Shown: piece after piece, positions 1 through 12,873 of the stretch
How positions within the stretch are numbered: position 1 is the stretch's first letter
How the letters are laid out: the number at the start of each line of letters is the position of its first letter
DNA from: Thermoproteota archaeon
GTDB lineage: Archaea > Thermoproteota > Bathyarchaeia > Bathyarchaeales > Bathycorpusculaceae
Length of the DNA: 12,873 nucleotides
NCBI GenBank assembly: GCA_012511995.1
Contig: JAAZFA010000017.1
Span: forward strand, 1-12,873
Direction: 5' to 3'
Position numbers and translations under genes: made by a program
The notes under the pieces: model-generated
What the model saw: the letters and a program-made list of their open reading frames with translations, nothing else
What the model was told of the DNA's origin: nothing
The model's database searches: none

Positions 1-901
1 TAAACCAATTAGTAATTGCCAATTCAAGTTTTGTTCTTGGAATAGCTTCTTTGAGTTTAGCTGGCATACGTAAGAGGACGTAGAGAAGCGAAGAACTAGA
101 TAAATCGAAGTTTGAAAGCGGCTTAAGTAAAGCGATATCGAGCATGTTGTTTAGTGACCCATAAACCCGAAAACTTGCTGCAGTAATTACTAAGGCACTG
201 AATAGCTTAATGTTAAAGGTACGTGATAACTCACTAATTTCCTTTACAAGCGACTCCTTAGCCAACATTAGGTCAAGTAAATAATTGACTACTGCATTCC
301 CTTTGATTTGAATGCCTTTTCTGTCAACACCGTTAAAAGTCTCGAGTAAATCGCGATCCAAACACAATACTGTAGAGTTTTCCGTAGCCAGACATAACTG
401 TAATGAAGCATATGTATTGAAATGCGCATCGGGAGGCTGAATTTTTGAAGGTAAAATCGCTATAGTCAGCGAATCGATGTTTTGCGATCGGAATTGAGTT
501 ATCAAACTTGGAATTGAAGCACTGCCCACTCCGTCCCAGGTTGACCCAAAAATTATGGTGCCTCGAAGTTTATCTTGGCTTTGCTTTTTAATACAGTCAA
601 TTACGGATTTGTCCTGAACGACAGTTGGGAGGACATCATACCAGAAATGAGTAGCTATGTCTGTATCCTCATAACCTATGATTAAGTGAGGTTTATACCC
701 TTCCGGTAGCCATTTGTACACGTCACCGCTTGATTTTTCGATAAAAACTGGTATTATACCGTCTATTGGTTGCTTGAGCATCGTCTTTATTGGGTATTCG
801 CCTATGCAAACAATGGCTTGCTTTGGAATAAGCGGAATCAAATGTTCAAGGTGTTTTTCGATACTCGTAATGATGTTAAAAGCATTTTTGTTATATCTCA
901 T
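1..901 (-). CDS. Divergent tubulin/FtsZ/CetZ-superfamily protein, 3' end beyond the window
   Basis: The minus strand is open from an ATG at 901 to the left edge: 300 codons without a stop, C-terminus missing. Seen: a Rossmann-like N-terminus (AIVCIGEYPIKTM, residues 29-41); a glycine/serine loop GSTWDGVGSAS (119-129) where FtsZ has GGGTGSG; strand LTIAILP (145-151); FNTYASLQL (161-169), resembling the tubulin YNATLS helix; LCLDRDLLETF (179-189), matching the FtsZ IPNdkLL / tubulin CIDNEAL position; and ALLKPL...SLLYVLLRMPAKL (257-283), matching the FtsZ AxxSPLL...vLvnItgg and CetZ ALLVVAGPPE regions. The order and spacing fit the superfamily, so the fold assignment is inference from several aligned blocks. 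Odd: the glycine box is altered and the T7 loop reads NIKLFSAL (230-237) instead of NxDFADV, so GTP hydrolysis may be lost. An in-frame ATG at 916 is an alternative start; AGGT lies just before 901. The gene is divergent from the 963 membrane protein. Confidence 0.65.
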   Translation of the reverse strand, partial: MRYNKNAFNIITSIEKHLEHLIPLIPKQAIVCIGEYPIKTMLKQPIDGIIPVFIEKSSGDVYKWLPEGYKPHLIIGYEDTDIATHFWYDVLPTVVQDKSVIDCIKKQSQDKLRGTIIFGSTWDGVGSASIPSLITQFRSQNIDSLTIAILPSKIQPPDAHFNTYASLQLCLATENSTVLCLDRDLLETFNGVDRKGIQIKGNAVVNYLLDLMLAKESLVKEISELSRTFNIKLFSALVITAASFRVYGSLNNMLDIALLKPLSNFDLSSSSLLYVLLRMPAKLKEAIPRTKLELAITNWF

Positions 902-962
902 TTGAGATACCTGCATAAACTTTAAGAGGCTTACACTTGAAATAAGCTTTTAGGTAAAGTGC
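902..962. promoter_or_regulatory. Compact divergent promoter region between the tubulin-like and membrane-protein genes
   Basis: Only 61 bp separate the two divergent starts, so both promoters must overlap or lie inside the opposite gene. An imperfect operator-like inverted repeat is visible, GCTTA (929-933), nine bases, TAAGC (943-947). TTTAAGA at 921-927 is a weak TATA candidate for the plus gene. AGGT at 952-955 is a plausible ribosome-binding site for the TTG start at 963. None of these elements is strong on its own. Confidence 0.35.
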
Positions 963-3371
963 TTGAAAAAACCCTCCTTATTTTCTCGAGTCAGCAACTG
1001 GACTAGTGCAAAAAGAAAAAGAAACAGCAAAAAAGAAGAATTAGAAAGACAAGCGGAAACTCCAATGCTAAAAATGATTACCTTTCTTGTTACGTTAGCG
1101 GCTATGGCGTTGGGTATGTCTTATTTACCGCTTTTTCCGCAACCTCTGCCTATTCTGTTGGCTGTTTTGGTTGCGTTTGTCACTTATCAAAAACCACGTT
1201 TCGGTATGCCTATTGGGGGAGCTTTACTTGGAATAGGTTTGCTTTATCAGCTATCAAAATTATACTTTATTTCTTTTCTAGGTGATACTCCTGTGCGAAT
1301 AGCGTTTATTATAGTTTGGATGGGTTTGTTTGTTGTATTACCGCTGATGTTTAAACGCTATAAAAGTGCATTGGCGATTAATTTTGGTATTTTTGCGTTT
1401 GTATCTCTTTTTTTTGAACCATTATATTTTATGGCTATTCCGCTGATTTTTGCATCTGCAGTTTACTTTAAAAAATATGTGGGGCTAACTGCAGTTTATT
1501 TTGTACTCTTATCGGTACCCCTTCAGCTCTATCAGTATTACCAATATACGGTTTTACCTTTTTCGAAAATTCAATCGGACTGGTGGACAATGCATGGTTC
1601 AGCTCCACCCTTATTTGTTTCCCTAAGTTCAGTTTCTGAAAACCTCACGAGCTCCATTAGTCAGTTCCGACTCTACGATACTTCGAATTTTATTTATGAT
1701 ATTGCTGGTCAAACAACATGGATTCCTAATTGGAACGGTGTCACTATCAAGGATGCATTGAGTCAATACATAGATTCCATGCCAGGTATAATCCTGTTTG
1801 TAGTAATCGTTGCTGGATTAGCAGTGGCATTCTTGTTCTTCTCGAGGATACTTGCCAAAGAAGGATTAATCGGCAGTAGCGACAGGTTTTTCCCTTGTTT
1901 TTCAGCAACAATTGCAGCCGCAGTATTCTTTATACTGCTCTCTACTCTGCAGGTGCCTTTGGCTTTCACTACAGAAATTGGTATTACAACAATGGTTTTT
2001 GGCATACTGGGAACAGCTCTCTTGACGCTACCGGTAATGTTTATGGATTACACACCAAAACAACGTGCGACAAATCAGCAAATTGCAGAGAAAGCACAAG
2101 CATTACTAGAGAAGGTTATCCACTTTGAGGGACAAGTGGCAAACGTCAAAGAAGCCATTCCTATAACCGTTAGCTCAACTGAAGGGAAAACGTCTGTTCT
2201 CAAATACGCTATTGAGGACACATTAAAAAAAGCAGTATTGCACAAAATCGAATTAGATGAATTAGACGAAAAGTATAGTGAACTAGAAAAGTTAGATCAA
2301 GATTATGAAGCCATCGAAGCAGAACTAAACACAATCCTATCAGAATACCAAGTTTTCTCAAACTGTGAATTCGCCAATTGGGTTGGAAAACTCAAAGTTG
2401 AAGGCTTAGACGTTAAAACCACAGCAAACGTTGAATTTCAAAAAGAGGTTTCAATTGAACAACGAACCGAAGCCATTAAACAACTCATCGAAGCAGGAAA
2501 GAATCTAGTCAGAGAATTAACATGTACTACAGTACCAATATATTCCATCATTAGCTCGTTATATGACCCTACTTTACCTGCAAAAAGCCACGCTATAGAG
2601 TTTGCGTCTGAGAAAATAGCGAAGAACCAATCGCCATGGATAGCCGTTGAAGCACTCTATAATGCTTTGAATAACTGGAAACGCCAATATGGTTCAGACA
2701 TTAAAATCACAATTAATTATTTTCAGAATTCTTTAAAACCTATTACACGCTTGGCTAGTCAAACTGAAAGTATAGTACTAGCTTTTGGTGACAATACCCC
2801 TAAAGTACAATGCTATGCCAAGAAAGCGTGTGAATTAAAAACGTTGGCGCTAAAGCGGTTAAATAAAGAAAGGCTGGGCCTTCAAGATATTGTGGGTCTA
2901 AGAGATGATGTCGAAACTTTCATTGCTATGTCTACTGACATTCTTGAGATGCTGCATAAGGCATTGGTTGATGATGAATTAGCTATCGATCGTTTGTCTC
3001 CCACCAAAGATTTTCTCTGGGAGAAGAATGATTTCTTACATGAGTGGTTAGAAGCGGCAACTATGATGCTATCCCAACCCTCAAAATATAAAATTAACGA
3101 AATTATGACGAATTTGTCGAAATCTCTTGTAAATGTTGATGCCGCTATACAGACATTAGCGTTATATGCTGAAAGGAAGGAGCTGCTGTTAAACTATCCA
3201 TTGGCGGAAGCGGCAATAAGCAATCAATTGGAAGTTAAAGGACGATTGTTGCCCATGGATTTACCTTTCCAGCCGTATTTTGCATCTGAATATCTTCGTT
3301 TGTTTTACATGACACGCCTTGGTGAATACTTGTTTAATAAAGAAAATTCAGAATTGATTAAACGCTCATAG
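963..3371 (+). CDS. Polytopic membrane protein with long helical cytoplasmic tail (unknown function)
   Basis: 802 residues from a TTG start; AGGTAAAG ends 3 nt before it, and the next in-frame Met is residue 35. Seen: a basic N-terminus (KRKRNSKK, about 17-24), which should stay in the cytoplasm. Hydrophobic segments lie at about 36-55, 62-76, 82-104, 111-130, 136-152, 154-170, 174-192, 274-296, 313-332 and 339-360. The stretch 193-273 between the seventh and eighth is polar and Trp/Ser-rich, probably extracytoplasmic. From about 365 to 802 the protein is charged and helical, with a coiled-coil-like acidic stretch at about 425-460 (ELDELDEKYSELEKL). The even number of segments puts both ends in the cytoplasm. 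I do not recognise the family; transporter signatures are absent. Divergence from the tubulin-like gene suggests, by inference, a membrane anchor or adaptor for it. Confidence 0.8.
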   Translation: MKKPSLFSRVSNWTSAKRKRNSKKEELERQAETPMLKMITFLVTLAAMALGMSYLPLFPQPLPILLAVLVAFVTYQKPRFGMPIGGALLGIGLLYQLSKLYFISFLGDTPVRIAFIIVWMGLFVVLPLMFKRYKSALAINFGIFAFVSLFFEPLYFMAIPLIFASAVYFKKYVGLTAVYFVLLSVPLQLYQYYQYTVLPFSKIQSDWWTMHGSAPPLFVSLSSVSENLTSSISQFRLYDTSNFIYDIAGQTTWIPNWNGVTIKDALSQYIDSMPGIILFVVIVAGLAVAFLFFSRILAKEGLIGSSDRFFPCFSATIAAAVFFILLSTLQVPLAFTTEIGITTMVFGILGTALLTLPVMFMDYTPKQRATNQQIAEKAQALLEKVIHFEGQVANVKEAIPITVSSTEGKTSVLKYAIEDTLKKAVLHKIELDELDEKYSELEKLDQDYEAIEAELNTILSEYQVFSNCEFANWVGKLKVEGLDVKTTANVEFQKEVSIEQRTEAIKQLIEAGKNLVRELTCTTVPIYSIISSLYDPTLPAKSHAIEFASEKIAKNQSPWIAVEALYNALNNWKRQYGSDIKITINYFQNSLKPITRLASQTESIVLAFGDNTPKVQCYAKKACELKTLALKRLNKERLGLQDIVGLRDDVETFIAMSTDILEMLHKALVDDELAIDRLSPTKDFLWEKNDFLHEWLEAATMMLSQPSKYKINEIMTNLSKSLVNVDAAIQTLALYAERKELLLNYPLAEAAISNQLEVKGRLLPMDLPFQPYFASEYLRLFYMTRLGEYLFNKENSELIKRS

Positions 3372-3415
3372 TCATAGTTTTTGTTAGTGTATAGCGTTAC
3401 GATGTGATTGTTTTG

Positions 3416-3634
3416 TTAAATATGGTTGCTGATTCTTTTTCTAATTTCCTCTTGCTGGTCAGGCGAGAAAATTTCTTCATTGCATGATGGGCAGCGGAGA
3501 GCTTTTACATCTTTCAGAACAACATTGTCAATTTCAAAATCAAAAGTAATCGCAACGTATTCAACGCAACAGGTGGGACAAAGTAATGCGCCCGCTTTAG
3601 TGCTTTTGTTGTTCTTCGCTGAATTTTTTGCCAA
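3416..3634 (-). CDS. Small YgiT/MqsA-N-like zinc-finger protein
   Basis: A 72-residue ORF from a TTG start, with two cysteine pairs: CPTC at 19-22 and CPSC at 48-51, separated by a beta-rich stretch (EYVAITFDFEIDNVVLKDV) and followed by EEIFSPDQQEEIRKRI. This CxxC...CxxC-x-E pattern resembles YgiT-type zinc fingers, found alone or as the N-terminal half of MqsA antitoxins. No HTH half and no MqsR-like toxin gene is visible next to it, so a toxin-antitoxin role is not supported. The start is uncertain: no good ribosome-binding site is visible, and the first 12 or so codons overlap, in another frame, the 3' end of the decayed flavodoxin copy. It converges with the membrane-protein gene ending at 3371. 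Confidence 0.55.
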   Translation of the reverse strand: MAKNSAKNNKSTKAGALLCPTCCVEYVAITFDFEIDNVVLKDVKALRCPSCNEEIFSPDQQEEIRKRISNHI

Positions 3635-4079
3635 GTGTATTCGCCCAAGTTTTTACCTTTGTCATATCCATTTTACGCGACACTGGGCTGCCTAAAATTT
3701 TAATGTATCCCCCAAACGCTTCAGTAGCAACCCGGTTTAAAGTTAACGAAACTAGATAAAACATTGGTAGTATATGCTGTAACAGTCTCGTCATATGTTT
3801 CTGGGTAAATAAAGCCTGAACAAGTATAGTGTGCGAATAAGCAGTTCCCAAAGTCTTTACCTAAGAAGAATTCGGTCTCAGGATAAATTTTACCCTCCAC
3901 ACACCGGTACTAACTATAATGGCGTGGTATTCATTAAAATATTGTACCGAATGACCATTTAAATTAGTCAAGTCAACCCAAAAGTTGTATTTTTCTTGAA
4001 GAACTTGCGCTATTTTCTTAGTTACTTTTTCTGTCGCATCACCTTTGCTTCCATAGGCAATCAAAATCTTATCAACCAA
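3597..4079 (-). pseudogene. Decayed tandem copy of the flavodoxin/HemG-like gene (two frameshifts)
   Basis: Seen: from a TTG at 4079, preceded by GGTGA, the frame reads VDKILIAYGSKGDATEKVTK, parallel to the start of the intact neighbour at 4585. At about 3893-3900 one base is missing: the homologous text GKIYPETEFFLGKDF continues in another frame (intact copy: GKVYSKATKFLENDF), while the original frame stops at 3861-3863. The second frame holds FAHYTCSGFIYPETYDETV (intact: FASSAWGGTPGEYYESAM). Near 3740-3755 an extra base restores the first frame, giving VATEAFGGYIKIL and DMTKVKTWANTLGKKF to the stop at 3597. The total span, 483 nt, is almost that of the intact gene, so a deletion and an insertion compensate. 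The middle third has also diverged most. Inference: a duplicate now inactive, unless the indels are sequencing errors. Confidence 0.75.
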
Positions 4080-4108
4080 AATTTCACCTTCACGATGCTG
4101 AATACAAT

Positions 4109-4585
4109 TTATCGTGTGAATAACTTGCCTAGTTCTAAAGCCCATGCTTTAACCTTAGTTAAATCGACGTTATCCACCATGGTCTTTTTGAAATATCTAA
4201 TTCGACCACCGAATGCTTCTTTGCTTACTACAGATATTTTTGGGTATTTTGATAAAGTTTTTCCGACGAATCTCTTCATTGCACTTTCATAGTATTCACC
4301 TGGAGTTCCACCCCAAGCAGATGAAGCAAAAAATGCCACTTGTTTTCCGCTGAAGTCGTTCTCTAAAAATTTAGTTGCTTTACTGTACACTTTACCCATT
4401 CTAACTCCTGCACCTACGATTATATTGTGGTATTGCATTAAATCAGGCGTTGGTTCTTCGTTTAGGTCAACTAAATCTACTTCAAGTCCAAATTCGGAAC
4501 GAAGCACTTCAGCGATTACACCTGCAGTTTCTCCAGAAACGCCTTGCTTTGTTTCATAAGCAATTAATGTTTTGTCATTGACCAT
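4109..4585 (-). CDS. Flavodoxin-domain protein, HemG-like (Flavodoxin_5 type)
   Basis: 158 residues from ATG 4585, with AGGAAAG just upstream. Seen: an N-terminal strand and FMN-phosphate loop TLIAYETKQGVSGETAG (6-22); DLVDLNEEPTPDLMQYHNII (37-56); the loop VGAGVRMGKVYSKATKFL, which resembles the GsgIrMGkw..ea.kFl block of protoporphyrinogen-oxidase-like flavodoxins; and a C-terminal EAFGGRIRYFKK...DLTKVKAWALELG, matching the fGGrl.y...W block. In bacteria HemG oxidises protoporphyrinogen IX, but many archaeal homologues have no proven substrate and the rest of a haem pathway is not visible here, so I call only an FMN flavoprotein, probably a cytoplasmic electron carrier or oxidoreductase. 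It is first of a minus-strand group with its decayed copy 29 bp downstream. The upstream 93 bp is shared with the divergent glycosyltransferase gene. Confidence 0.85.
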   Translation of the reverse strand: MVNDKTLIAYETKQGVSGETAGVIAEVLRSEFGLEVDLVDLNEEPTPDLMQYHNIIVGAGVRMGKVYSKATKFLENDFSGKQVAFFASSAWGGTPGEYYESAMKRFVGKTLSKYPKISVVSKEAFGGRIRYFKKTMVDNVDLTKVKAWALELGKLFTR

Positions 4586-4735
4586 TTTTTCTTTCCTGAT
4601 AAAAACAGATTACGAAGAAGGTAATAAATTACGGGGTAACAACATTGTAATCATTAAATAAGATGTGGCAACTCGCTATTGAAACACGACTACAAAAAAG
4701 GGTTTTTAGGTAGTGGTTTAGTAGTTTTGAGCGGA
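4586..4735. promoter_or_regulatory. Divergent promoter region, flavodoxin / glycosyltransferase
   Basis: Two AT-rich TATA-like elements are visible. CATTAAATAAG (4651-4661) is suitably placed for the plus-strand glycosyltransferase, putting a start site near 4685. TAATAAATTA (4621-4630) is suitably placed for the minus-strand flavodoxin gene, whose ribosome-binding site AGGAAAG lies directly before ATG 4585. The implied plus-strand transcription start near 4685 argues against the TTG at 4679 as the glycosyltransferase start. Confidence 0.35.
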
Positions 4736-5776
4736 ATGGTATATCCAATAGTGCATGAACATATCATCCCGAAGATATCTGTTGTTATGGCAGTTTACAA
4801 CAAAGCACCTTACCTACGTCAAAGTATAGAGTCCGTTTTAAAGCAGGACATGCAGGCGTTTGAATTGATCTGTGTTGATGCATCCTCAACCGATGAAAGC
4901 CTTTCAATACTCAACGAATATTCCTCCAAGGACTCTCGAATAACGGTTTACAGCACTACATATTCTAGAATTCCAGCCATAACAAAAAACTTTGGTATAG
5001 ATAGAACAAAAGGCGATTATGTATTCAACCTCGATGCAGATGATTACTTAAGACCAGATACGCTAAGTAAAATGTACATTCAAGCAAAGACGACTGGTGC
5101 AGATGCTGTTATACCTGATTTACAGACAGTATCCTCAAGCGGACAAAAGATACCGCCGTTTATATCCGGTGTTAAGGGCAACAGGAAAATACTGCTTACT
5201 AATAGGCAAGCTGTCATTGAAAGCCTCGATTGGGCAATTCACGGGTTCGCTCTTTGGAAAGGACATATGATTCGCAAGATCAGGTTTGAAGAGTTTGGCG
5301 TATATAGCGATGAGTATTCTGCACGAGTTCTATTTTTTAATTGTAGAAAAATTTGTTTCTCCGAGGGTACTTACTTTCATAGATTTAGTAATCAATCTTT
5401 AACCGGAAGGATTAGTTTACAAACCTATGACCGTCCTGAAACAACACGCAGAGTAGCCTCTTTCTTAGACGAGCACTCGTTCAGTCAAAGAAATGTTAAT
5501 GGCTTACATTTTTCTGCCTTTAAAGACTGCTGTTTTCTACTTTTCTTGAGCAAGAACCTGGCGGCGCCAAACCTGGCAGAAGCTGAAAAAAGGATAAAAA
5601 GAGTTTATGACCGTATTGATATGCATAAAGTTAGAAAAAGCGTTTGTACTCTAACTCCTGGTAGAAGTGCGTTATGGTCTACAGAAGGGAAATTAAAAAA
5701 ATATTTGTTTGTTCTTTTGACTTTTCTAAACTGGAATTCGCTGAAAAGGATACCGATGAAACATTTTTTTACATAA
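4736..5776 (+). CDS. Family 2 (GT-A fold) glycosyltransferase
   Basis: About 346 residues from ATG 4736. Seen: the canonical GT2 N-terminus ISVVMAVYNKAPYLRQSI (14-31), the nucleotide-binding Asp in DASSTDES (48-55), and the metal-binding DxD in NLDADDYLRPDTL (98-110). The acceptor half contains FALWKGHMIRK and a YSDEYSARVLFF segment, where GT2 enzymes carry the ED-type catalytic acids. No transmembrane domain follows, so it is probably a soluble or peripheral enzyme using a nucleotide sugar for surface glycan or protein glycosylation; donor and acceptor cannot be told. The start is uncertain: the frame stays open to a TTG at 4679 (19 residues more) and also has a TTG at 4727. I prefer 4736 because the GT2 domain then begins near the N-terminus. 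No other glycan gene is adjacent, so it looks like an orphan. A T6 run (5780-5785) follows the stop. Confidence 0.85.
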   Translation: MVYPIVHEHIIPKISVVMAVYNKAPYLRQSIESVLKQDMQAFELICVDASSTDESLSILNEYSSKDSRITVYSTTYSRIPAITKNFGIDRTKGDYVFNLDADDYLRPDTLSKMYIQAKTTGADAVIPDLQTVSSSGQKIPPFISGVKGNRKILLTNRQAVIESLDWAIHGFALWKGHMIRKIRFEEFGVYSDEYSARVLFFNCRKICFSEGTYFHRFSNQSLTGRISLQTYDRPETTRRVASFLDEHSFSQRNVNGLHFSAFKDCCFLLFLSKNLAAPNLAEAEKRIKRVYDRIDMHKVRKSVCTLTPGRSALWSTEGKLKKYLFVLLTFLNWNSLKRIPMKHFFT

Positions 5777-5833
5777 ATGTTTTTTCAACAAAATGCTTGA
5801 GACATGATTAGGTTATCCGTTTTATTCGATCAA

Positions 5834-5843
5834 TAAATATTAA
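5834..5843 (+). promoter_or_regulatory. TATA-like box before the BsuPI-like gene
   Basis: AAATATTAAA lies about 45 nt upstream of the ATG pair at 5883/5886, in otherwise mixed sequence, which is the expected distance for an archaeal TATA box with a short leader. The downstream GAAGGAAG (5872-5879) then serves as ribosome-binding site. Confidence 0.4.
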
Positions 5844-5882
5844 ACCATATCATTATCAACACAAGAACTCTGAAGGAAGATA

Positions 5883-6327
5883 ATGATGGTAATTAAACTC
5901 AATAATACTTTTAAAATTGTTATAACAGCATGTTTTATAGCCCATTTTTGTAACATCCGCTTTATTAATTTTATCTTACAAAATGATTCTAAGCGAAAAA
6001 GTTTTCCCTCTGGAGGTAGACTTGGATAAAAACGTCTTTAATGTTGGGGAAAAAATATCTTTCAATGCAACGACAATTAATAGAAGCGGTAAAGACGTCA
6101 ACATGTCTTCCAACGGAGAAATGCCATGTGTATTTTTTCACCATATCAATGACATGACCACTCATGGGGAAACAACAGTAAGAGTCGACCAAATATTCAA
6201 AGCGAACGATAAAATATCAAGAGCTTTTGAGCATGAAGCTATTGAGACAGGCACATACCCCTTGATGTCCATTACTGCATTGGAGTTAATGAGGTTTGGA
6301 TTCAAAACAAAATTGATAACATTATGA
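5883..6327 (+). pseudogene. Membrane-anchored or secreted BsuPI-like (Ig-like) protein, frameshifted near its N-terminus
   Basis: The best ribosome-binding site (GAAGGAAG, 5872-5879) precedes ATG 5883/5886, which opens a peptide with a hydrophobic core, LNNTFKIVITACFIA. This frame soon loses its hydrophobic character and ends at a stop near 6029. The next frame, blocked upstream by a stop at 5938-5940, continues PIFVTSALLILSYKMILSEK and then the conserved body FPLEVDLDKNVFNVGEKISF. Joining the frames at about 5938-5950, by removing one base, gives a 147-residue protein: one N-terminal signal or anchor segment (about 10-33), then a beta-rich domain with NATTINRSGKDVNM, GEMPCVFFHHIN and ETGTYPL. 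This recalls BsuPI-type intracellular-proteinase-inhibitor / Ig-like domains found in secreted archaeal proteins, a family call made only by pattern. If only the intact frame is used, the gene starts at ATG 5983 and encodes 114 residues without the anchor. Confidence 0.55.
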
Positions 6328-6401
6328 TTGAAGTAAAATAGAGATCTTTGAGCTACCGCAGGTCAGTAACACAAAATTTGCGATAACTGTATGATTTGTT
6401 T

Positions 6402-6759
6402 TTATGTATTTCTGGATGATTCCAGTACTATATGTTTACCACAACTGTTACAAAACAATGCGCCAGAGACATTATTGACTTCACAATTTGGACAAGTAAT
6501 TGAATTATCCGAAGGCGTAAATAGATTGTGATTTTTCCTGACTATTATCTTTAACTTTTTTGAAAGCTGCCTGTGTTTCATGCGCTGCAATAGTGAACAC
6601 TTTTTCAATCTCAACACCGACTTGATATAACACGTCACTTAACTCATCGGAGGGATAGGATACTTTGGCTGCTTTTCCAGCAATAGTTTTAGTACCACAT
6701 TTTGGACAAAAATTCGCCTCATCAGGGATTTGAGCGCCACAGTTTGAGCAATAAACCAT
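6402..6759 (-). pseudogene. Double zinc-ribbon protein split by a frameshift
   Basis: From ATG 6759 (GTGAAATTT before it) the frame reads MVYCSNCGAQIPDEANFCPK, a classic CxxC-x11-CxxC zinc ribbon (YCSNCG...FCPKCG), then a helical linker (SDELSDVLYQVGVEIEKVF, HETQAAFKKVKDN). After the linker the frame runs into nonsense ending at 6505. Another frame carries a second ribbon, ITCPNCEVNN...LFCNSCGKHIV, to a stop at 6402. The junction is close to a five-A run on the coding strand (6532-6536): removing one A gives a continuous product of about 118 residues with a zinc ribbon at each end. Such proteins are common in archaea, with no defined function beyond probable nucleic-acid or protein binding. 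It could be a real pseudogene, a sequencing error in the homopolymer, or (least likely) a slippery site. A TATA box at 6801-6812 supports a separate transcript. Confidence 0.7.
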
Positions 6760-6800
6760 AAATTTCACGATTGAATGGTAAGTGGATTGTAAATTTAAGG

Positions 6801-6812
6801 TTTTATAAAATA
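6801..6812 (-). promoter_or_regulatory. TATA box for the zinc-ribbon gene
   Basis: On the minus strand the element reads TATTTTATAAAA and lies about 45 nt upstream of ATG 6759, predicting a transcription start about 20 nt before the codon. Just upstream lies a perfect palindrome GACGC-AA-GCGTC (6826-6837), in a position where a regulator could sit. Confidence 0.4.
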
Positions 6813-6850
6813 AAATAAAGCTTATGACGCAAGCGTCCATTGAAGTGCCC

Positions 6851-6866
6851 TGAAAAAGGTTTTTCA
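6851..6866 (-). terminator. Possible terminator after the geranylgeranyl reductase gene
   Basis: TGAAAAA-CC-TTTTTCA on the minus strand is a perfect 7-2-7 inverted repeat containing a T5 tract, 21 bases after the stop codon of the reductase. Archaeal termination mainly needs T tracts, so the T-rich arm matters more than the short-looped hairpin. Confidence 0.35.
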
Positions 6867-6886
6867 TAGAATAAAAGAAGGTATGC

Positions 6887-8251
6887 TTAATCGACTAATT
6901 TCTTGCGCGCTTCTTCGATTAAACGCACCGTTTCATCACGCCATTCTTCAAATCCGCGGGGTGTCTCTGGATATGTATTGTAGTGGACGCCTAACCCTTT
7001 CATCATGCTAACAGTTGTATGTAGCTTGTTTAGGAAGCCAACTTTACGTATACCGCGGAAAACACGTTTGGCAGTTTCAGTTATGTTTAAGTGGAAATCA
7101 TCACCCATGCCTGCTTTAAGTACATCATCTTCAGTCATCAATTTTTGATTCATACCATAGTTAAGATCTTCGTCGCTACAGCTCAATAGGAATATCTTGA
7201 AGATATCAAGCGTGCCTTGTTTCTTTCCATAGGTGTCGATGTATCTCTTATTGTAACCCCAGAGTGCCTCTCTTGTTGGTTCACCCTTACCCAATGCTTC
7301 CACGATTTGTTGACCTGCATAGTATCCAGATAGCATTGAGGGACCGATGCCGCCACCATGAATGGGGTTTACTAGTGAAGCTGCGTCGCCAATTATTACA
7401 ACACCATTGGCCACCATGCTATCAAGTGGTCTTCGTACAGGATCAAACCATGCACCACCAGTCAATACCAAGGAATCCTCAAACATTGGTTTTTTTAGTG
7501 CTGTCTTGTAGAGTTGCTCTTTAGGGTTAGGGTAACCTGTTTTTCGCATGCAGGTACCAATTCCTACGTTCATACGTGCACCACCTTTGGGGAAAATCCA
7601 CACGTAGCCGCCTGGTGAGGCTTGCTGGTTAAGGTATATCTCGCAGAAACGGGTATTTTCGGCTTCTTGTTTGAGTTGTCGGATTTCTCTATAGCATGCT
7701 TCGACGTCTTCGTTGTCAATTTCACTGTCGATGCCTAATTCGGCTGGAAGTTGCTTGCGGATCATGCCGAAGAAGCCTGTAGCGTCGACGACGACTTTGC
7801 TTCGTAACTCTGATATGTTACCAGTTTTCATATTTTTAGCTGTAATTCCAACCACAGCGCCTTTTTCGATGATTGGACTGCGGATATTCATATTATCTTC
7901 TAGATGTGTACCTGCGTCAGTGGCTTTTTTGAGTAACCACTGACCAAAGAGGCGCCTATTTAGAATGTGACCTACAAAGTCCTTGTCGGCAATGGTGAAA
8001 ATCGTGTTTTCATCTGGTGAATAAATTTTTATACCGTCTATTTTGGCTTCTAATTCGCCGCCTGTGGGTTTCTCGAGACCTAAGGTTTTTAAGTGGTGGT
8101 CGCCGAGTGCATCTCCACAGATTTTCTCGCCAATTTCTTGTTTTGGTTTTTTCTCGATCAGGCAAACTTTAAGCCCTTTTTCGGTTAAAGTTTTTGCTGC
8201 TATACAGCCTGCTGTTCCTGCGCCTACAACAATAGTGTCATATTTTTCCAT
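6887..8251 (-). CDS. Geranylgeranyl reductase family FAD-dependent oxidoreductase
   Basis: 454 residues from ATG 8251, chosen because AGGAAGAG lies directly upstream and the FAD-binding fold then begins at residue 5; the longer open frame to 8350 would cross the promoter. Seen: dinucleotide-binding YDTIVVGAGTAGCIAAKTL (4-22) with its acidic strand end LIEKKP; GEKICGDALG, the position of the conserved Cys-Gly of this family; PGGYVWIFPKGGARMNVGIG, containing the YxWxFPKG signature; and VVIIGDAASLVNPIHGGGIG, the second FAD motif. The C-terminal 120 residues are helical. Family members reduce the geranylgeranyl double bonds of archaeal ether lipids (digeranylgeranyl phospholipid reductases) or related isoprenoids; the exact substrate is inferred. 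It is cytoplasmic and membrane-associated in the family. It is divergent from an HxlR-type regulator and shares its promoter. Confidence 0.88.
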   Translation of the reverse strand: MEKYDTIVVGAGTAGCIAAKTLTEKGLKVCLIEKKPKQEIGEKICGDALGDHHLKTLGLEKPTGGELEAKIDGIKIYSPDENTIFTIADKDFVGHILNRRLFGQWLLKKATDAGTHLEDNMNIRSPIIEKGAVVGITAKNMKTGNISELRSKVVVDATGFFGMIRKQLPAELGIDSEIDNEDVEACYREIRQLKQEAENTRFCEIYLNQQASPGGYVWIFPKGGARMNVGIGTCMRKTGYPNPKEQLYKTALKKPMFEDSLVLTGGAWFDPVRRPLDSMVANGVVIIGDAASLVNPIHGGGIGPSMLSGYYAGQQIVEALGKGEPTREALWGYNKRYIDTYGKKQGTLDIFKIFLLSCSDEDLNYGMNQKLMTEDDVLKAGMGDDFHLNITETAKRVFRGIRKVGFLNKLHTTVSMMKGLGVHYNTYPETPRGFEEWRDETVRLIEEARKKLVD

Positions 8252-8280
8252 GAGTAATCTCTTCCTAGTGACTTTACTTA

Positions 8281-8298
8281 TTACACTTTGTTGTGTAA
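8281..8298. promoter_or_regulatory. Operator-like palindrome TTACAC-N6-GTGTAA
   Basis: A perfect 6-6-6 inverted repeat lies between the shared TATA box and the start codon of the geranylgeranyl reductase. It falls at the expected minus-strand transcription start (about 25 nt from the TATA element), where bound protein would block transcription. Winged-helix dimers such as HxlR bind sites of this size, and an HxlR gene is the divergent neighbour; binding itself is inferred. Confidence 0.5.
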
Positions 8299-8305
8299 GT
8301 AAACG

Positions 8306-8315
8306 CTTATAAATT
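8306..8315. promoter_or_regulatory. Shared TATA box of the reductase/HxlR divergent pair
   Basis: CTTATAAATT reads as a good archaeal TATA box on the plus strand and as AATTTATAAG on the minus strand. On the plus strand it predicts a start site around 8335-8340, just before ATG 8351. On the minus strand it predicts one around 8283, about 30 nt before ATG 8251 and upstream of its ribosome-binding site. One element could serve both directions. Confidence 0.5.
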
Positions 8316-8332
8316 GTGAAGTGAGTTTCTCC

Positions 8333-8343
8333 ACACTGAGTGT
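8333..8343. promoter_or_regulatory. Second operator-like palindrome ACACT-G-AGTGT
   Basis: A perfect 5-1-5 inverted repeat sits 8 bases before the HxlR start codon and over its expected transcription start. Its half-sites (ACAC/GTGT) match in sequence and orientation those of the palindrome at 8281-8298, on the other side of the TATA box. This suggests one regulator, probably the HxlR protein, controlling both directions. Confidence 0.45.
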
Positions 8344-8350
8344 AAACCAC

Positions 8351-8791
8351 ATGAGCGCACCCCTAACATTAAGTGCAGAGTTCCGAAAAATTGTAGAGAC
8401 ACGTATGGCACAGATACTCAGAGGCGTTGAAGAAACATTTAATGAAATAATTGAAAAACAAAACATTACCCCTGTACACTTAACAGCAGAATTAGAAAGC
8501 CTTCAAGATAACTTTAACTTTGTTTTTCAGAAATGGAGCCTTGAAATTCTCTACACAATAATGTTAAGGAAAACTATCGGTTTCGGTGAAATTAAGAAAA
8601 TATTAGGTGTAAACTCACGTACCCTTTCTGACAAACTCAAAATGCTTCAAACACGTGGGTACATATTTAGAAACGTCAATGAAGGACCACCATTGCGGGT
8701 AGAGTACTCTTTATCTACTAAGGGACAGGATACGGTGTTACTTGCTTTGCCTCTGCTATATTATTCTAGTTCAACTGACGATAAGGTTTAA
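8351..8791 (+). CDS. HxlR-type winged-helix transcriptional regulator
   Basis: 146 residues from ATG 8351. A GTG at 8321 is in frame but lies upstream of the start site implied by the TATA box at 8306-8315, so I reject it. Seen: an N-terminal helical extension of about 60 residues (EFRKIVETRMAQILRGVEE), then the HxlR core: FQKWSLEILYTIMLRKTIGF, GEIKKILGVNSRTLSDKLKM (recognition helix region), LQTRGYIFRNVNEGPPLRVE and YSLSTKGQD, the wing and the last helix. The family pattern KWxxxIL...F.eL...S.rtLs.rL..L...G...R......P.rVeYsLT..G is well kept. HxlR proteins are dimeric DNA-binding regulators, often of adjacent redox or stress genes; no Cys is present here, so thiol sensing is unlikely. The probable targets are itself and the divergent reductase. 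The stop overlaps the stop region of the convergent Lrp gene by 4 bases. Confidence 0.85.
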   Translation: MSAPLTLSAEFRKIVETRMAQILRGVEETFNEIIEKQNITPVHLTAELESLQDNFNFVFQKWSLEILYTIMLRKTIGFGEIKKILGVNSRTLSDKLKMLQTRGYIFRNVNEGPPLRVEYSLSTKGQDTVLLALPLLYYSSSTDDKV

Positions 8792-9282
8792 GCTGATTTA
8801 CGCATTGCCTGAGGTAAACTAGTACTTTCCTTAACTGTCTCAAAAACCATACATGTCAAGGTTTTTTCTAAGCCTTTGATATTGCGTAATTTGTCTACGA
8901 CGAATTTTCCAACGGTTTCCACATTCTCAGCACGTAACTTCACCAGTAGGTCCCAGTCACCCGTAATAATGTGGACTTCTTGGACTTCTGGAAATCGCGC
9001 TATTTCTTCAGCAACATCTCGTTGAGTAATTGGTGTGTTGTCTTTTGCACGGTAGGATACAGATGCAAGGATAAAAGCTACCGTTGATAAATGGAGTTTC
9101 TCTGGGGAGAGTATGGCGCGGTATTGTTTAATTATGCCGAGTTCTTCCATGCGCTTGATTTTTGCGAAAATGGTTGTTATTGGTGTATTGATTTTCTTCG
9201 CTATTTGGTTAGCTGTTAGTTTACTGTTTTCTTGTATGAGAGTTAGTATAGCGAGATCTTTTTCGTCTAATTTAACGCTCAT
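8788..9282 (-). CDS. Lrp/AsnC family transcriptional regulator
   Basis: 164 residues from ATG 9282. Seen: an N-terminal HTH starting LDEKDLAILTLIQENSKLTA (5-24) with NQIAKKINTPITTIFAKIKR (25-44) as recognition helix region and MEELGIIKQYRAIL; then the RAM/AsnC ligand domain with AFILASVSY, EEIARFPEVQEVHIITGDWD, LLVKLRAENVETVGKFVVDK and LRNIKGLEKTLTCMVFETVK. The GDWD turn matches the conserved G-x-D-y effector-binding region of the family. Lrp/AsnC proteins assemble into octamers and sense amino acids. Divergence from the asparagine-synthetase-like gene suggests control of that gene by asparagine or aspartate, by analogy with AsnC and asnA of E. coli (inference). The end of the gene converges on the HxlR gene. 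Confidence 0.9.
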   Translation of the reverse strand: MSVKLDEKDLAILTLIQENSKLTANQIAKKINTPITTIFAKIKRMEELGIIKQYRAILSPEKLHLSTVAFILASVSYRAKDNTPITQRDVAEEIARFPEVQEVHIITGDWDLLVKLRAENVETVGKFVVDKLRNIKGLEKTLTCMVFETVKESTSLPQAMRKSA

Positions 9283-9308
9283 ATGTAAATATTACCGATT
9301 TAACCTAT

Positions 9309-9325
9309 TAAAACATATAGTTTTA
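9309..9325. promoter_or_regulatory. AT-rich palindrome at the Lrp promoter
   Basis: TAAAAC-ATATA-GTTTTA is a perfect 6-5-6 inverted repeat 27 bases upstream of the Lrp start codon, and its centre doubles as a TATA-like element for the minus strand. Lrp family members commonly bind AT-rich palindromes at their own promoters, so autoregulation is a reasonable inference. Confidence 0.4.
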
Positions 9326-9343
9326 GTAAATTATCCATGTTTT

Positions 9344-9389
9344 TTTATAAAAAATTTATTACTCTCTTTGTAACAGTGTACCAATACAC
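9344..9389 (+). promoter_or_regulatory. TATA box and inverted repeat before the asparagine synthetase-like gene
   Basis: TTTATAAAAA (9344-9353) is a clear TATA box and predicts a transcription start near 9376. Exactly there lies the perfect repeat GTGTA-CCAA-TACAC (9376-9389). The position over the start site suits an operator. The half-sites point in the opposite sense to those beside the HxlR gene, so a common regulator is not implied. Confidence 0.5.
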
Positions 9390-9392
9390 GTA

Positions 9393-10364
9393 GTGAACAC
9401 GTTGACTATGCAAGAATTAATCCTACTCCCAAAACCGTTAGACCAACTTACTGACCCTGAAATTAAGCGTAAAGCCTGCATAGGCAAAATTATGACTTAC
9501 ACACTTAAAAGCCTCACAAATACCTATGTCACTAAAGGCTTTGAGTGGTTGCTCCCCGTTGCCTTAAGCCAAAGTACCGACCCCCTCTGGCCAGATCCAG
9601 GCGCATCAATTGAAAAACGAATTGAAGTAAACATCTACGACAAACTAGTTCGTACAACAGCTAGCATGATAGTTCATAAACTTGTAGGGTGTTCAACTGT
9701 TTATGAAAAACTATTTATTTTATCGCCTAACATCCGCATTGAAAAAGCTGAACGTGCAAAAACTGGCAAACACATTTACGAATTTACACAATTAGATTTT
9801 GAAATACGCAATGCAAACTCAAAAGATATTTTCAGGTTAGTCGAAGATACACTGTGCACCCTCATTAAGGGTTTAAAGGTTGAGTGTAAAGCGGAATTAG
9901 CTGCGTTGCACCGAAGTGACCTCAAGATTCCTAAGGCACCATTCAAAGTATTAGACCGCACAGATCTGGAAGCAAAACATGGCATCGAATGGGAAGCAAG
10001 AATTTGTAGAGAGATCACAGAACCAGTCTGGATAGTAAACATTCCACGTGAATTTTATGACTATGAAGACTTTGCCACGGGCAGATGGGATAACTACGAT
10101 TTGTTCATGCCGCAGTATGGTGAAGTTCTTTCAGGCTCTCGACGAGAGTTCGAGTATGAAAAAATCTATGAAAAGATGGAACGAGAGCAAGTTAGAAAAG
10201 AGAATTACTCCATCATACTCAAGATGGCAAAAGAAGGTAGATTAAAACCTACTGCAGGTGCAGGCATGGGAATGGAACGTATAGTTGGCTACATTACTGG
10301 AGTAGAACATATAGGTGAGTGTCAACCCTTCCCGAGGGTACCTGGAAACGTACATGAACTTTAA
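9393..10364 (+). CDS. Archaeal asparagine synthetase A-type enzyme, AsnRS-related class II catalytic core
   Basis: 323 residues from GTG 9393; ATG 9408 (five residues shorter) is an equally plausible start. Seen: class II aaRS motif 2 as FILSPNIRIEKAER (108-121) with HIYEFTQLDFEI (127-138), closely following the AsnRS fRAE...RHL.EF...E pattern. Motif 3 is GAGMGMERIVGYITGVEHIG (289-308) followed by QPFPRVPG. The N-terminal OB-fold anticodon-binding domain of AsnRS/AspRS is absent: the protein is only the catalytic core. Proteins of this design in Pyrococcus make asparagine from aspartate, ammonia and ATP rather than aminoacylating tRNA, and the length fits that family. A tRNA-charging role is unlikely without an anticodon domain. 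The divergent Lrp/AsnC gene supports an amino-acid-biosynthesis role. The next gene (PEP carboxykinase) begins 17 bases later, so the two are probably cotranscribed. Confidence 0.85.
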   Translation: MNTLTMQELILLPKPLDQLTDPEIKRKACIGKIMTYTLKSLTNTYVTKGFEWLLPVALSQSTDPLWPDPGASIEKRIEVNIYDKLVRTTASMIVHKLVGCSTVYEKLFILSPNIRIEKAERAKTGKHIYEFTQLDFEIRNANSKDIFRLVEDTLCTLIKGLKVECKAELAALHRSDLKIPKAPFKVLDRTDLEAKHGIEWEARICREITEPVWIVNIPREFYDYEDFATGRWDNYDLFMPQYGEVLSGSRREFEYEKIYEKMEREQVRKENYSIILKMAKEGRLKPTAGAGMGMERIVGYITGVEHIGECQPFPRVPGNVHEL

Positions 10365-10381
10365 TGAACTGACGTGATAGA

Positions 10382-12280
10382 ATGAATCCATACCTTGAAG
10401 CATTACAACAAAAATTAAGCCCAGCTGATTTCAAAAAATTAAGCGCAATAGATAATCCTGTTGTTCATGAATTCATCGCAAAGGAAAGCGACCTCTGTCA
10501 CCCGGAAAAAATCTTCATATGCAGTGACTCCACAGAAGATATCGCTCATGTGAGGAAGATGGCGGTAACTTCTGGTGAAGAATTAGCAACTCTGAGCATG
10601 GATGGTCACACTGTTCATTTTGATGGTGAACAGGACCAAGGCAGGGATCGCGTAAACACAAAATATCTCATTCCAAAAGGGGTGACTTTTAGTAAAGCAC
10701 TCAACCAAATAGATCGACAAGAAGGTTTAGCTGAAGTCAGGGGTTTAATGCGTGAAATCATGAATGGCAAAACAATGATTGTCCGCTTTATTGCCCTTGG
10801 ACCCACCAACAGTGCTTTTACTCTTTTGGGTATCCAATGTACCGATTCCTGGTATGTTGCCCATACTGAAGATCTGCTTTATCGTCCTGGATATGAGCAA
10901 TTCGTTAAGGCCGGTCCAAAAAGCGATTTTTTACGTGTCATTCACTCAGCAGGAAAACTAAACAGTGACATGGTTAGTGTCGATTATAAGAATAAACGCA
11001 TCTACATCGACCACATGGACAATACAATATATAGCGTCAATACCCAATACGCTGGTAATTCTGTTGGCTTTAAAAAACTTGCGTTCCGTTTAGCAATCCG
11101 TAAAGCCAGTAGTGAAGGCTGGCTAGCAGAACATATGTTACTCATGGGTATTTTTGGTCCAGATGGAAAACGAAAAAGCTACTTTGCAGGTGCTTTTCCA
11201 AGTGCGTGTGGTAAAACTTCAACTGCTATGTTACCAGGCGAAACCATTCTCGGTGACGACATTGCATACATCCGAGACGTAAATTCTACTGCACGTGCAG
11301 TTAATGTTGAATCAGGTATATTTGGCATTATTCAGGATGTTAAAGCTAAAGATGATGCCCTGATATGGAAAGTCATAACTAGCCCTGGTGAAATTATTTT
11401 CTCAAATGTCCTAATAAAAGACGGTAGACCCTACTGGCTTGGAATGGGCGAAGAACTTCCTAAGGACGGTCAAAACTATACTGGTATATGGTATGAAGGT
11501 AAAAAAGACGAAGCAGGCAACGAGATACCCGCAGCAAACAAGAATGCACGCTATGCAGTGTCGCTAAAAGTATTAGAAAACGTTGACCCTGAACTCAACA
11601 ATCCTGCCGGTGTAGAACTCGCCGGTATTATGTATGGTGGAAGAGACGCTAAAGCTTACGTGCCAGTTCAACAAAGCTTCAGTTGGGAACACGGTATAAT
11701 TGCTTATGGCGCATCTTTAGAGACCGAAACAACATTTGCTACTATCGGAAAAGAAGGTATGCCAGAGATTAACATGATGAGCATCCAAGACTTCATTTCT
11801 ATCCCCATGGGTAAAAACGTTAAAAACAACCTACAGTTCGGTCGTAAACTAAAGAAACAGCCAACAATTTTTGGGGTAAACTATTTCCTGCGTGAAGTCG
11901 GAAACGGTAAGTACCTCAATACTCCTCAGGATAAACATGTCTGGGTTAAGTGGATGGAACTACGCGTTCATAACGAAGCAGGTGCAATTAAGACCCCTAC
12001 CGGCTACATACCTATTTACGAAGACCTAAAGAAACTGTTTAAGCGTGTACTAAAACGTGATTACAGTAAAGAAGACTATATCAAACAATTCACTATACGA
12101 GTACCCGAGAACCTTGCTAAGATCGAACGTGTTTCACGTTTCTACCAAGAAAATGTCACTGACACACCATTGGAAATGTTTGGTATGCTCTATATGCAAC
12201 GCCAACGTTTAATTGATGCACAAGCTAAATATGGCGACTACATATCTCCCGAATGCTTTGAAAAGGAAGTAAACTCATAA
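10382..12280 (+). CDS. pckG: Phosphoenolpyruvate carboxykinase (GTP)
   Basis: 632 residues, within the usual range for the GTP-dependent family. ATG 10382 has GTGATAG just before it. Seen: the substrate-binding Arg region GRDRVNTKYLIPKG (87-100); QYAGNSVGFKKLAFRLAIRK (222-241), with the metal and substrate-binding lysine; LAEHMLLMGI (248-257), with the metal-binding His; the P-loop AFPSACGKT (271-279), including the reactive Cys; GDDIAYI (291-297), with the metal Asp; and YGGRDAKAYVPVQQSFSWEH later on. All key residues appear present. The enzyme interconverts oxaloacetate + GTP and PEP + CO2 + GDP in the cytoplasm, mainly for gluconeogenesis, or in the carboxylating direction in some autotrophs. 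It follows the asparagine-synthetase-like gene by 17 bases, linking aspartate/oxaloacetate metabolism. A T-rich tract at 12298-12310 may end the transcript. Confidence 0.95.
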   Translation: MNPYLEALQQKLSPADFKKLSAIDNPVVHEFIAKESDLCHPEKIFICSDSTEDIAHVRKMAVTSGEELATLSMDGHTVHFDGEQDQGRDRVNTKYLIPKGVTFSKALNQIDRQEGLAEVRGLMREIMNGKTMIVRFIALGPTNSAFTLLGIQCTDSWYVAHTEDLLYRPGYEQFVKAGPKSDFLRVIHSAGKLNSDMVSVDYKNKRIYIDHMDNTIYSVNTQYAGNSVGFKKLAFRLAIRKASSEGWLAEHMLLMGIFGPDGKRKSYFAGAFPSACGKTSTAMLPGETILGDDIAYIRDVNSTARAVNVESGIFGIIQDVKAKDDALIWKVITSPGEIIFSNVLIKDGRPYWLGMGEELPKDGQNYTGIWYEGKKDEAGNEIPAANKNARYAVSLKVLENVDPELNNPAGVELAGIMYGGRDAKAYVPVQQSFSWEHGIIAYGASLETETTFATIGKEGMPEINMMSIQDFISIPMGKNVKNNLQFGRKLKKQPTIFGVNYFLREVGNGKYLNTPQDKHVWVKWMELRVHNEAGAIKTPTGYIPIYEDLKKLFKRVLKRDYSKEDYIKQFTIRVPENLAKIERVSRFYQENVTDTPLEMFGMLYMQRQRLIDAQAKYGDYISPECFEKEVNS

Positions 12281-12297
12281 AATGGTAGACACAATCC

Positions 12298-12330
12298 TTT
12301 TTCCACTTTTAATATCTTAAAATATTTAAG
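12298..12330 (+). terminator. T-rich terminator tract and adjacent palindrome after PEP carboxykinase
   Basis: TTTTTCCACTTTT (12298-12310) lies 18 bases after the PEP carboxykinase stop and resembles an archaeal T-tract terminator. It is followed by the perfect inverted repeat CTTAAA-ATA-TTTAAG (12316-12330), which may be part of termination or a TATA-like upstream element for the next gene. Confidence 0.4.
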
Positions 12331-12413
12331 CAATGACAGTACACTGAGCAGTAATTCACAATTGTTAATTAGATAAAACGGCCAAAAGAAATACTAAAGC
12401 AGAAGGAAGTAAA

Positions 12414-12665
12414 ATGGTGCCTAAAATGAAGAAGCCTGAAAAGAAATGCGAACACACAATTAAAGCAATGTGCATCGAAAGTGATGGGTCATTCAATTGT
12501 CCTCAATGCGGTATGTCAATTTCTCCTGATGACGTAAATGATGATAACTATCAAATCATGGATACAAAAGTAGTGAATGATGAATTGGCTGAGTTAGTCA
12601 TTGCATGCGGCAAATGCGGTTGTATCATTAAGTTGACTGGGTTTCAACAGGGCTTTGATGCATAA
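12414..12665 (+). CDS. Small cysteine-rich zinc-binding protein of unknown function
   Basis: 83 residues from ATG 12414, with a strong ribosome-binding site GAAGGAAG at 12402-12409. Seen: a lysine-rich start (MVPKMKKPEKKCEHTIKAMC), a CxxC knuckle CPQCG (29-33), an acidic middle part (ISPDDVNDDNYQIMD), and a second knuckle CGKCGC (66-71) close to the C-terminus. Seven cysteines and one histidine in total give enough ligands for one or two zinc sites. No enzyme motif is present. It resembles many small archaeal zinc ribbons thought to bind nucleic acid or act as protein modules, but I do not recognise a specific family. It is separated from PEP carboxykinase by 133 bases with its own ribosome-binding site, so it is probably transcribed separately. 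Confidence 0.75.
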   Translation: MVPKMKKPEKKCEHTIKAMCIESDGSFNCPQCGMSISPDDVNDDNYQIMDTKVVNDELAELVIACGKCGCIIKLTGFQQGFDA

Positions 12666-12873
12666 CGAGGTTTCTTTATAATTCATAGTTATAACAAATA
12701 ATGCTCTATCCAGGTCTACTCCAATATGTATCAAAAAATTTTACTGTTTTTTCCATAATTGTTGGTGCTATATAGGTTCAGTTTACAGTAGTGGTTGCAT
12801 TATTATGTTGAGGGATGGGTGTAAGTTTTTTTGGTGTCTATAACAGTTGTATGGAGGAAAAAAGAGAGTTATA
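12666..12873. other. Right-edge stretch without a supported gene
   Basis: Stop codons interrupt the frames on both strands. A TATA-like GCTATATAGG (12768-12777), a TCTATAAC element (12837-12844) and a GGAGG (12853-12857) near the edge suggest the promoter and ribosome-binding site of a plus-strand gene lying mostly beyond the window. ATG 12851 opens a frame (MEEKREL) that is too short to judge. Confidence 0.3.

Follow-up and report, generated by a model that had tools for sequence, protein, structure and literature searches.

The α/β-tubulins follow a two-subunit logic in which both α- and β-tubulin bind nucleotide and one site is silent. In prokaryotes, the FtsZl1/Tubulin_2 family (PF13809) was described from membrane-remodeling loci with adjoining membrane proteins, where vWA, GTPase, kinase and OmpA genes are frequent neighbors; the available part of that account describes no degenerate tubulin partner and identifies neither T6-H7 nor an FtsZ-like C-terminal domain in the family (Makarova and Koonin, 2010; PMC2875224). 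The thaumarchaeal non-canonical FtsZ (Nmar_1262) has the motif AGKAGSA and lacks GGGTGTG and T7, and the accessible text of the same report states that the N. maritimus FtsZ, without both motifs, formed no polymers in yeast (PMC3684127). Here we describe a locus of the archaeal class Bathyarchaeia that resembles the FtsZl1 loci in its adjoining membrane proteins and differs from them in a second, degenerate tubulin relative. It was recognized from a contig of 12,873 nucleotides (JAAZFA010000017.1, positions 1 to 12,873; hereafter the window), which is contig C10 of a metagenome-assembled genome (MAG; GCA_012511995.1) of 2.23 Mb in 499 contigs, 85% complete. We name its products D, the pseudo-tubulin encoded at the start of the window; T2, the Tubulin_2/FtsZl1 partner; TM and X, two membrane proteins; and Y, the product of a fifth gene. 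Computational evidence supports the fold of D, the loss of its T4 and T1 loops, the conservation of a new pocket and of residue E226, the linkage and co-occurrence of the genes, and the architecture of T2. The locus looks like an undescribed membrane-attached cytoskeleton, and what was an orphan hypothetical protein can thereby be assigned to a conserved and probably cytoskeletal locus of an uncultured archaeal class.

A predicted tubulin-superfamily fold with an altered nucleotide site

The last 100 residues of D lie on another contig of the MAG (C35), which has exactly 127 bases in common with the start of the window (Table 1). At E≤1e-3, D matches 452 proteins; counts out of 120 below refer to the best 120 of these, i.e., the closest ones, and counts out of 54 to a D alignment that takes in distant members too. 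Pfam profile PF00091 scores the window's D reading frame at 13.6 bits, below its curated cutoff of 33; at E≤1 it matches 29 of 32 D members, with a best value of 1.1e-4. The AlphaFold2 (AF2) model of a close homolog (P0001, 405 aa, 97% identical to D) has a predicted two-domain tubulin fold, and all of the 50 Foldseek and 50 VIA matches listed for it are tubulin-superfamily proteins or microtubule/γ-tubulin complexes. A reading of the window from its sequence alone (hereafter the sequence-only reading) had proposed this fold from the order of the superfamily blocks. Both the fold and the order are borne out, with WDGVGSA at the T4 position followed by strand S5, helix H5 (FNTYASLQL), S6/T6 (LCLDRD) and H9-S8 (ALLKPL..LLYVLL). 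Another Rossmann family was also considered for D and is rejected, as all entries among these listed matches belong to the tubulin superfamily.

The same reading had noted an altered GGGTGSG signature, and this holds across the family: none of 120 homologs has GGG[TS]G[STA]G and 115 have WDG[VI]G[ST]A, so that, to judge from the alignment, the altered T4 is conserved and not a chance change. T1 is also altered, reading GEYPIK where the superfamily has GxGxxGxN. G129, D163, F166 and N167 are identical in 54/54 sequences, R188 is retained in 52/54 and W127 in 50/54; given this conservation, the D pocket looks rebuilt rather than decaying. D thus appears to have lost the canonical GTP-binding loops and, in the predicted model, to have retained the full two-domain tubulin fold. 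The earlier assignment of NIKLFSAL to the T7 loop fell on the wrong segment: in the model, where H7 spans residues 208-219, H8 223-234 and S7 238-248, it covers the H8-S7 loop and runs into S7; in alignments with FtsZ the T7/H8 position instead falls on E226 and E229. The first T7 acid aligns under E226 for 8/8 canonical FtsZ sequences in 6/6 MAFFT settings, and, among 19 other tubulin-like proteins, for 11 to 14 (the motif pattern misses some). E226 is acidic in 54/54 and E229 in 50/54 sequences; the pattern around them occurs in 116/120 homologs, and the remaining four retain both acids. E226 is therefore likely, as far as alignments can tell, to be the T7/H8 acid of D.

A conserved locus pairs D with an intact-motif tubulin and membrane proteins

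Among 256 genomes of the class, D occurs in 37, T2 in 40 and TM in 39. T2 is present in 36 of the 37 D genomes, and in the exception (G023) D lies at a contig end. In a sample of 20 loci drawn from the 37 D genomes, D and TM are head to head in 20/20, with an intergenic region in the window that may be a shared promoter region. T2 is tail to tail with D in 17/17 loci whose contig continues (the other three contigs end), and X, assigned by position, is the same-strand gene ahead of T2 in those 17. The same order is seen in four loci of genome family f27, where X was found by profile. T2 escaped the sequence-only reading because its locus is located beyond the window's coding end.

T2 is a Tubulin_2 protein (PF13809, 40.8 bits against a cutoff of 27) with intact GGGTGSG and FDLAD motifs. 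Its predicted model, for which CetZ is the best fold match, has long helices from residue 330 to about 770 and contains both T6-H7 and a C-terminal tubulin domain, the two elements missing from the 2010 description in the part available; that domain is probably split by a helical arm of about 450 residues, probably a coiled coil. The model thus hints that FtsZl1/Tubulin_2 proteins may possess the T7 loop and the C-terminal tubulin domain that filaments require, a point that the accessible portion of that study left open (PMC2875224).

The hydrophobic segments of TM lie within residues 33 to 363, and a long hydrophilic stretch follows. Most X proteins have an N-terminus that is hydrophobic, a single membrane span further on and a C-terminal tail that is conserved; one query did not find X in the window's own genome, which is 85% complete. 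Y, of 302-317 aa, directly follows TM in six loci, its members being mutually linked by BLASTP; the three Y proteins scanned gave no Pfam match over cutoff. Pfam matches to vWA, GTPase, kinase and OmpA domains were absent from the TM, X and Y proteins and other neighbors scanned, which form a subset of all neighbors.

The distribution of D is patchy. Two families have it, f1 and f27, and within the window's genus 17 of 32 genomes do. D occurs without TM in G109, and TM without D in G005, G132 (a fragment) and G250. T2 occurs without D in G005, where it lies at a contig end, and in G140, G210 and G250; the G140 match (E=7e-4, in the helical part) we take as chance. In G250, the gene next after X-T2-TM encodes a protein of 346 aa with a weak match to D (E=0.011). 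This D-like protein (L103:7949-8989, minus strand), in a collinear X-T2-TM-D order, is very divergent and is rich in cysteine (CxxC) in an N-terminal segment.

Of the 37 D genomes, 12 encode a further clear PF00091 protein (E<1e-20). In the window's genome no PF00091 protein exceeds the cutoff, but a Snf7/CdvB-type protein does. At E≤1e-3, Snf7/CdvB is matched in 40 of 41 genomes, with the match over cutoff in 21; among 14 control genomes Snf7 gave a match in Sulfolobus only, below cutoff. Given the Snf7/CdvB proteins and, in the window's genome, the lack of PF00091 proteins over cutoff, a role for D as the FtsZ division protein is disfavored, and cell division is likely carried out by Cdv, with D and T2 as accessory proteins. 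An anti-phage defense role was likewise set aside, as PADLOC gave no match for five proteins. Separately, one Bathyarchaeia genome carries four consecutive PF00091 matches on a single contig, as tandem tubulin/FtsZ-like genes (L166; G200:C3:9500-14800).

Relationship to other members of the superfamily

We placed D in one maximum-likelihood tree together with Bathyarchaeia FtsZ, CetZ-like and thaumarchaeal-type sequences, where it forms a single, long branch (length, about 2.2 substitutions per site). Of the proposal that D lies outside FtsZ, CetZ, tubulin and artubulin, this tree favors the separation from FtsZ and CetZ-like proteins, and adds that from the thaumarchaeal type. CetZ is among the best fold matches of D and its best match in a sequence-profile search (3zid), and in alignment the NA motif of CetZ-like proteins falls on the H5 Asn of D; however, the G-rich T4 is intact in the CetZ alignment and altered in D, which stands on its own branch. 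Asgard AtubB2, α/β-tubulin and BtubA/B are like D in fold, yet AtubB2 keeps the G-rich loop in the alignment whereas D does not.

From 3 of the 398 genomes of the phylum, the D profile also recovers proteins with AGKAGSA, AGKDGAA or AGKSGAA (E=1e-6 to 8e-5), which we take, from these motifs, to be of the thaumarchaeal non-canonical FtsZ type. Like D, thaumarchaeal FtsZ has lost GGGTGTG, but with a different T4 replacement; the recovered proteins score higher with the FtsZ profile. The AGKAGSA-type proteins join the FtsZ side of the tree and not D (ultrafast bootstrap [UFBoot] 83, which is weak given the long branches). Beside the three genes of this type we found no T2 or X, and TM at just 9.1 bits on a cut 115-aa reading frame in one of the three. 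A common origin with D is not supported, and the separate position and neighborhoods suggest that loss of the GTP motifs probably occurred more than once. Non-canonical FtsZ-like sequences in Bathyarchaeia are mentioned without detail in the available part of another study and could include D or T2 (PMC9723716); in a literature search, which excluded supplements and subscription papers, no title or start of an abstract named the D family or the locus.

A putative heteromeric membrane assembly and its alternatives

A tubulin with intact motifs paired with a pocket-altered one, both with conserved folds, is best explained by a heteromeric membrane assembly. We give about an even chance to D being a non-hydrolyzing partner of T2 in a membrane-tied filament or patch. 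D and T2 would join up in alternation or end to end, and the assembly would be tied to the membrane by the polytopic TM and by X, with its one span and predicted extracellular part. The conserved H8 acid of D would complete the GTPase site of a neighboring T2, while D's own rebuilt pocket would hold no hydrolyzable GTP, as at the silent site of α/β-tubulin. The D-T2 contact, the co-assembly, the GTPase complementation and the membrane role we infer from the features above. A fuller version, in which a GTPase-competent T2 with the split arm of about 450 residues and a D that binds no GTP and supplies the catalytic acid form a membrane-tethered hetero-filament, is offered tentatively, as one that we would sooner expect to fail than to hold. 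If true, Bathyarchaeia would have a cytomotive lattice that falls outside FtsZ, CetZ and tubulin, requires a dead-pocket subunit and carries its own spacer arm. In any case, a motif-less tubulin relative linked to a motif-bearing one lends itself naturally to testing how heteromeric tubulin lattices originate.

Several observations speak against this partnership. T2 has its own apparently complete T1, T4 and T7 and may not need D, and G210 has T2 without a recognizable D, TM or X nearby. In the D-like G250 protein, inspection by eye suggests that the T4 loop and the H8 acids are gone. Against T2, the first T7 acid falls under E226 in 10/15, 0/15 and 0/15 sequences in three runs (the pattern misses some T2 proteins), and the helix boundary in the D model permits a three-residue shift by which E226 could match the second T7 acid. 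E229 is R or K in the f27 D members shown, and hhalign gave no significant pair for D with FtsZ or T2, the profiles being too shallow.

A regulator or cap, binding a T2 end or monomer through a tubulin-like longitudinal face and limiting or nucleating T2 filaments at the membrane, is a possible but doubtful alternative. It would account for the lost nucleotide loops beside a conserved T4/T5 face, for the conserved gene neighborhood and for the variable D tail, which in 111/120 homologs has a basic cluster within its last 60 residues, as expected of an adaptor; yet a one-sided cap would need neither the conserved H8 acid nor the whole fold. The sequence-only reading had favored a family that forms filaments or scaffolds without normal GTP hydrolysis; in the corresponding alternative, D itself would form a static, nucleotide-independent structure of this kind, on which T2 and TM would act. 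Its premise of altered GTP loops stands and the complete predicted fold agrees with it; however, the conserved locus with a motif-intact T2 and membrane proteins makes a stand-alone structure less likely than a partner subunit, D hardly ever occurs without T2 (36/37), and the N. maritimus result in yeast, as given in the accessible text, argues the other way (PMC3684127), so that we consider it unlikely. That the rebuilt pocket of D still accommodates a nucleotide or some other small ligand, with D acting as a ligand-sensing subunit, seems improbable: W127, D128, D163, N167 and R188 are conserved in 50 to 54 of 54 sequences and the H5 Asn has its CetZ-like counterpart, but the phosphate-holding glycines of T1 and T4 are mostly gone and the G250 protein seems to be without the loop. 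Finally, a decaying paralog retained by chance near T2 is hardly credible: although the GTP motifs are lost and D is split by stops in G013, its frame is open in most D genomes with invariant residues common to both families, and TM and T2 are also in pieces in G013, which sequencing error or local decay may explain there.

Features of the window and other genes

Table 1. Coordinates of D, its motifs and associated features, in window numbering unless a contig or locus is named
Feature	Position	Strand	Remarks
D, pseudo-tubulin	2..916	-	N-terminal 305 of ~405 aa; open reading frame (ORF) cut at contig end
D, alternative start codon	899-901	-	Start used by most family members
D, 3′ end	Contig C35 = L003:2792-3220		
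T4 position of D, WDGVGSA, residues 127-133	518..538	-	Replaces GGGTG[ST]G
T6 position of D, R188-D189	350..355	-	FtsZ has Asn there (DNN/DND)
Likely T7/H8 acids of D, E226 to E229	230..241	-	From alignments with FtsZ
NIKLFSAL, residues 235-242	191..214	-	H8-S7 loop and beginning of strand S7 in model
D-TM intergenic region	917..962	.	46 bp, divergent
TM, 802-aa membrane protein	963..3371	+	Hydrophobic segments, no Pfam family
Y	L058:12445-13383; L063:12563-13516; L064:12569-13483; L105:12271-13188; L107:6185-7117; L108:14123-15031		

Elsewhere in the window, the segment 3597-4145 (minus strand) is a degraded second copy, with an in-frame stop, of a gene at 4109-4585 (minus strand) that is flavodoxin-like by eye (32% identity over 158 aa). 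A geranylgeranyl-reductase-like gene (6887-8350, minus strand) overlaps divergently, by the ORF calls, an HxlR-type regulator (8321-8791, plus strand). The gene at 9393-10364 (plus strand) encodes a 323-aa class II aminoacyl-tRNA-synthetase core (tRNA-synt_2, 1.2e-29) with no other domain match, which presumably resembles the archaeal AsnRS-related asparagine synthetase.
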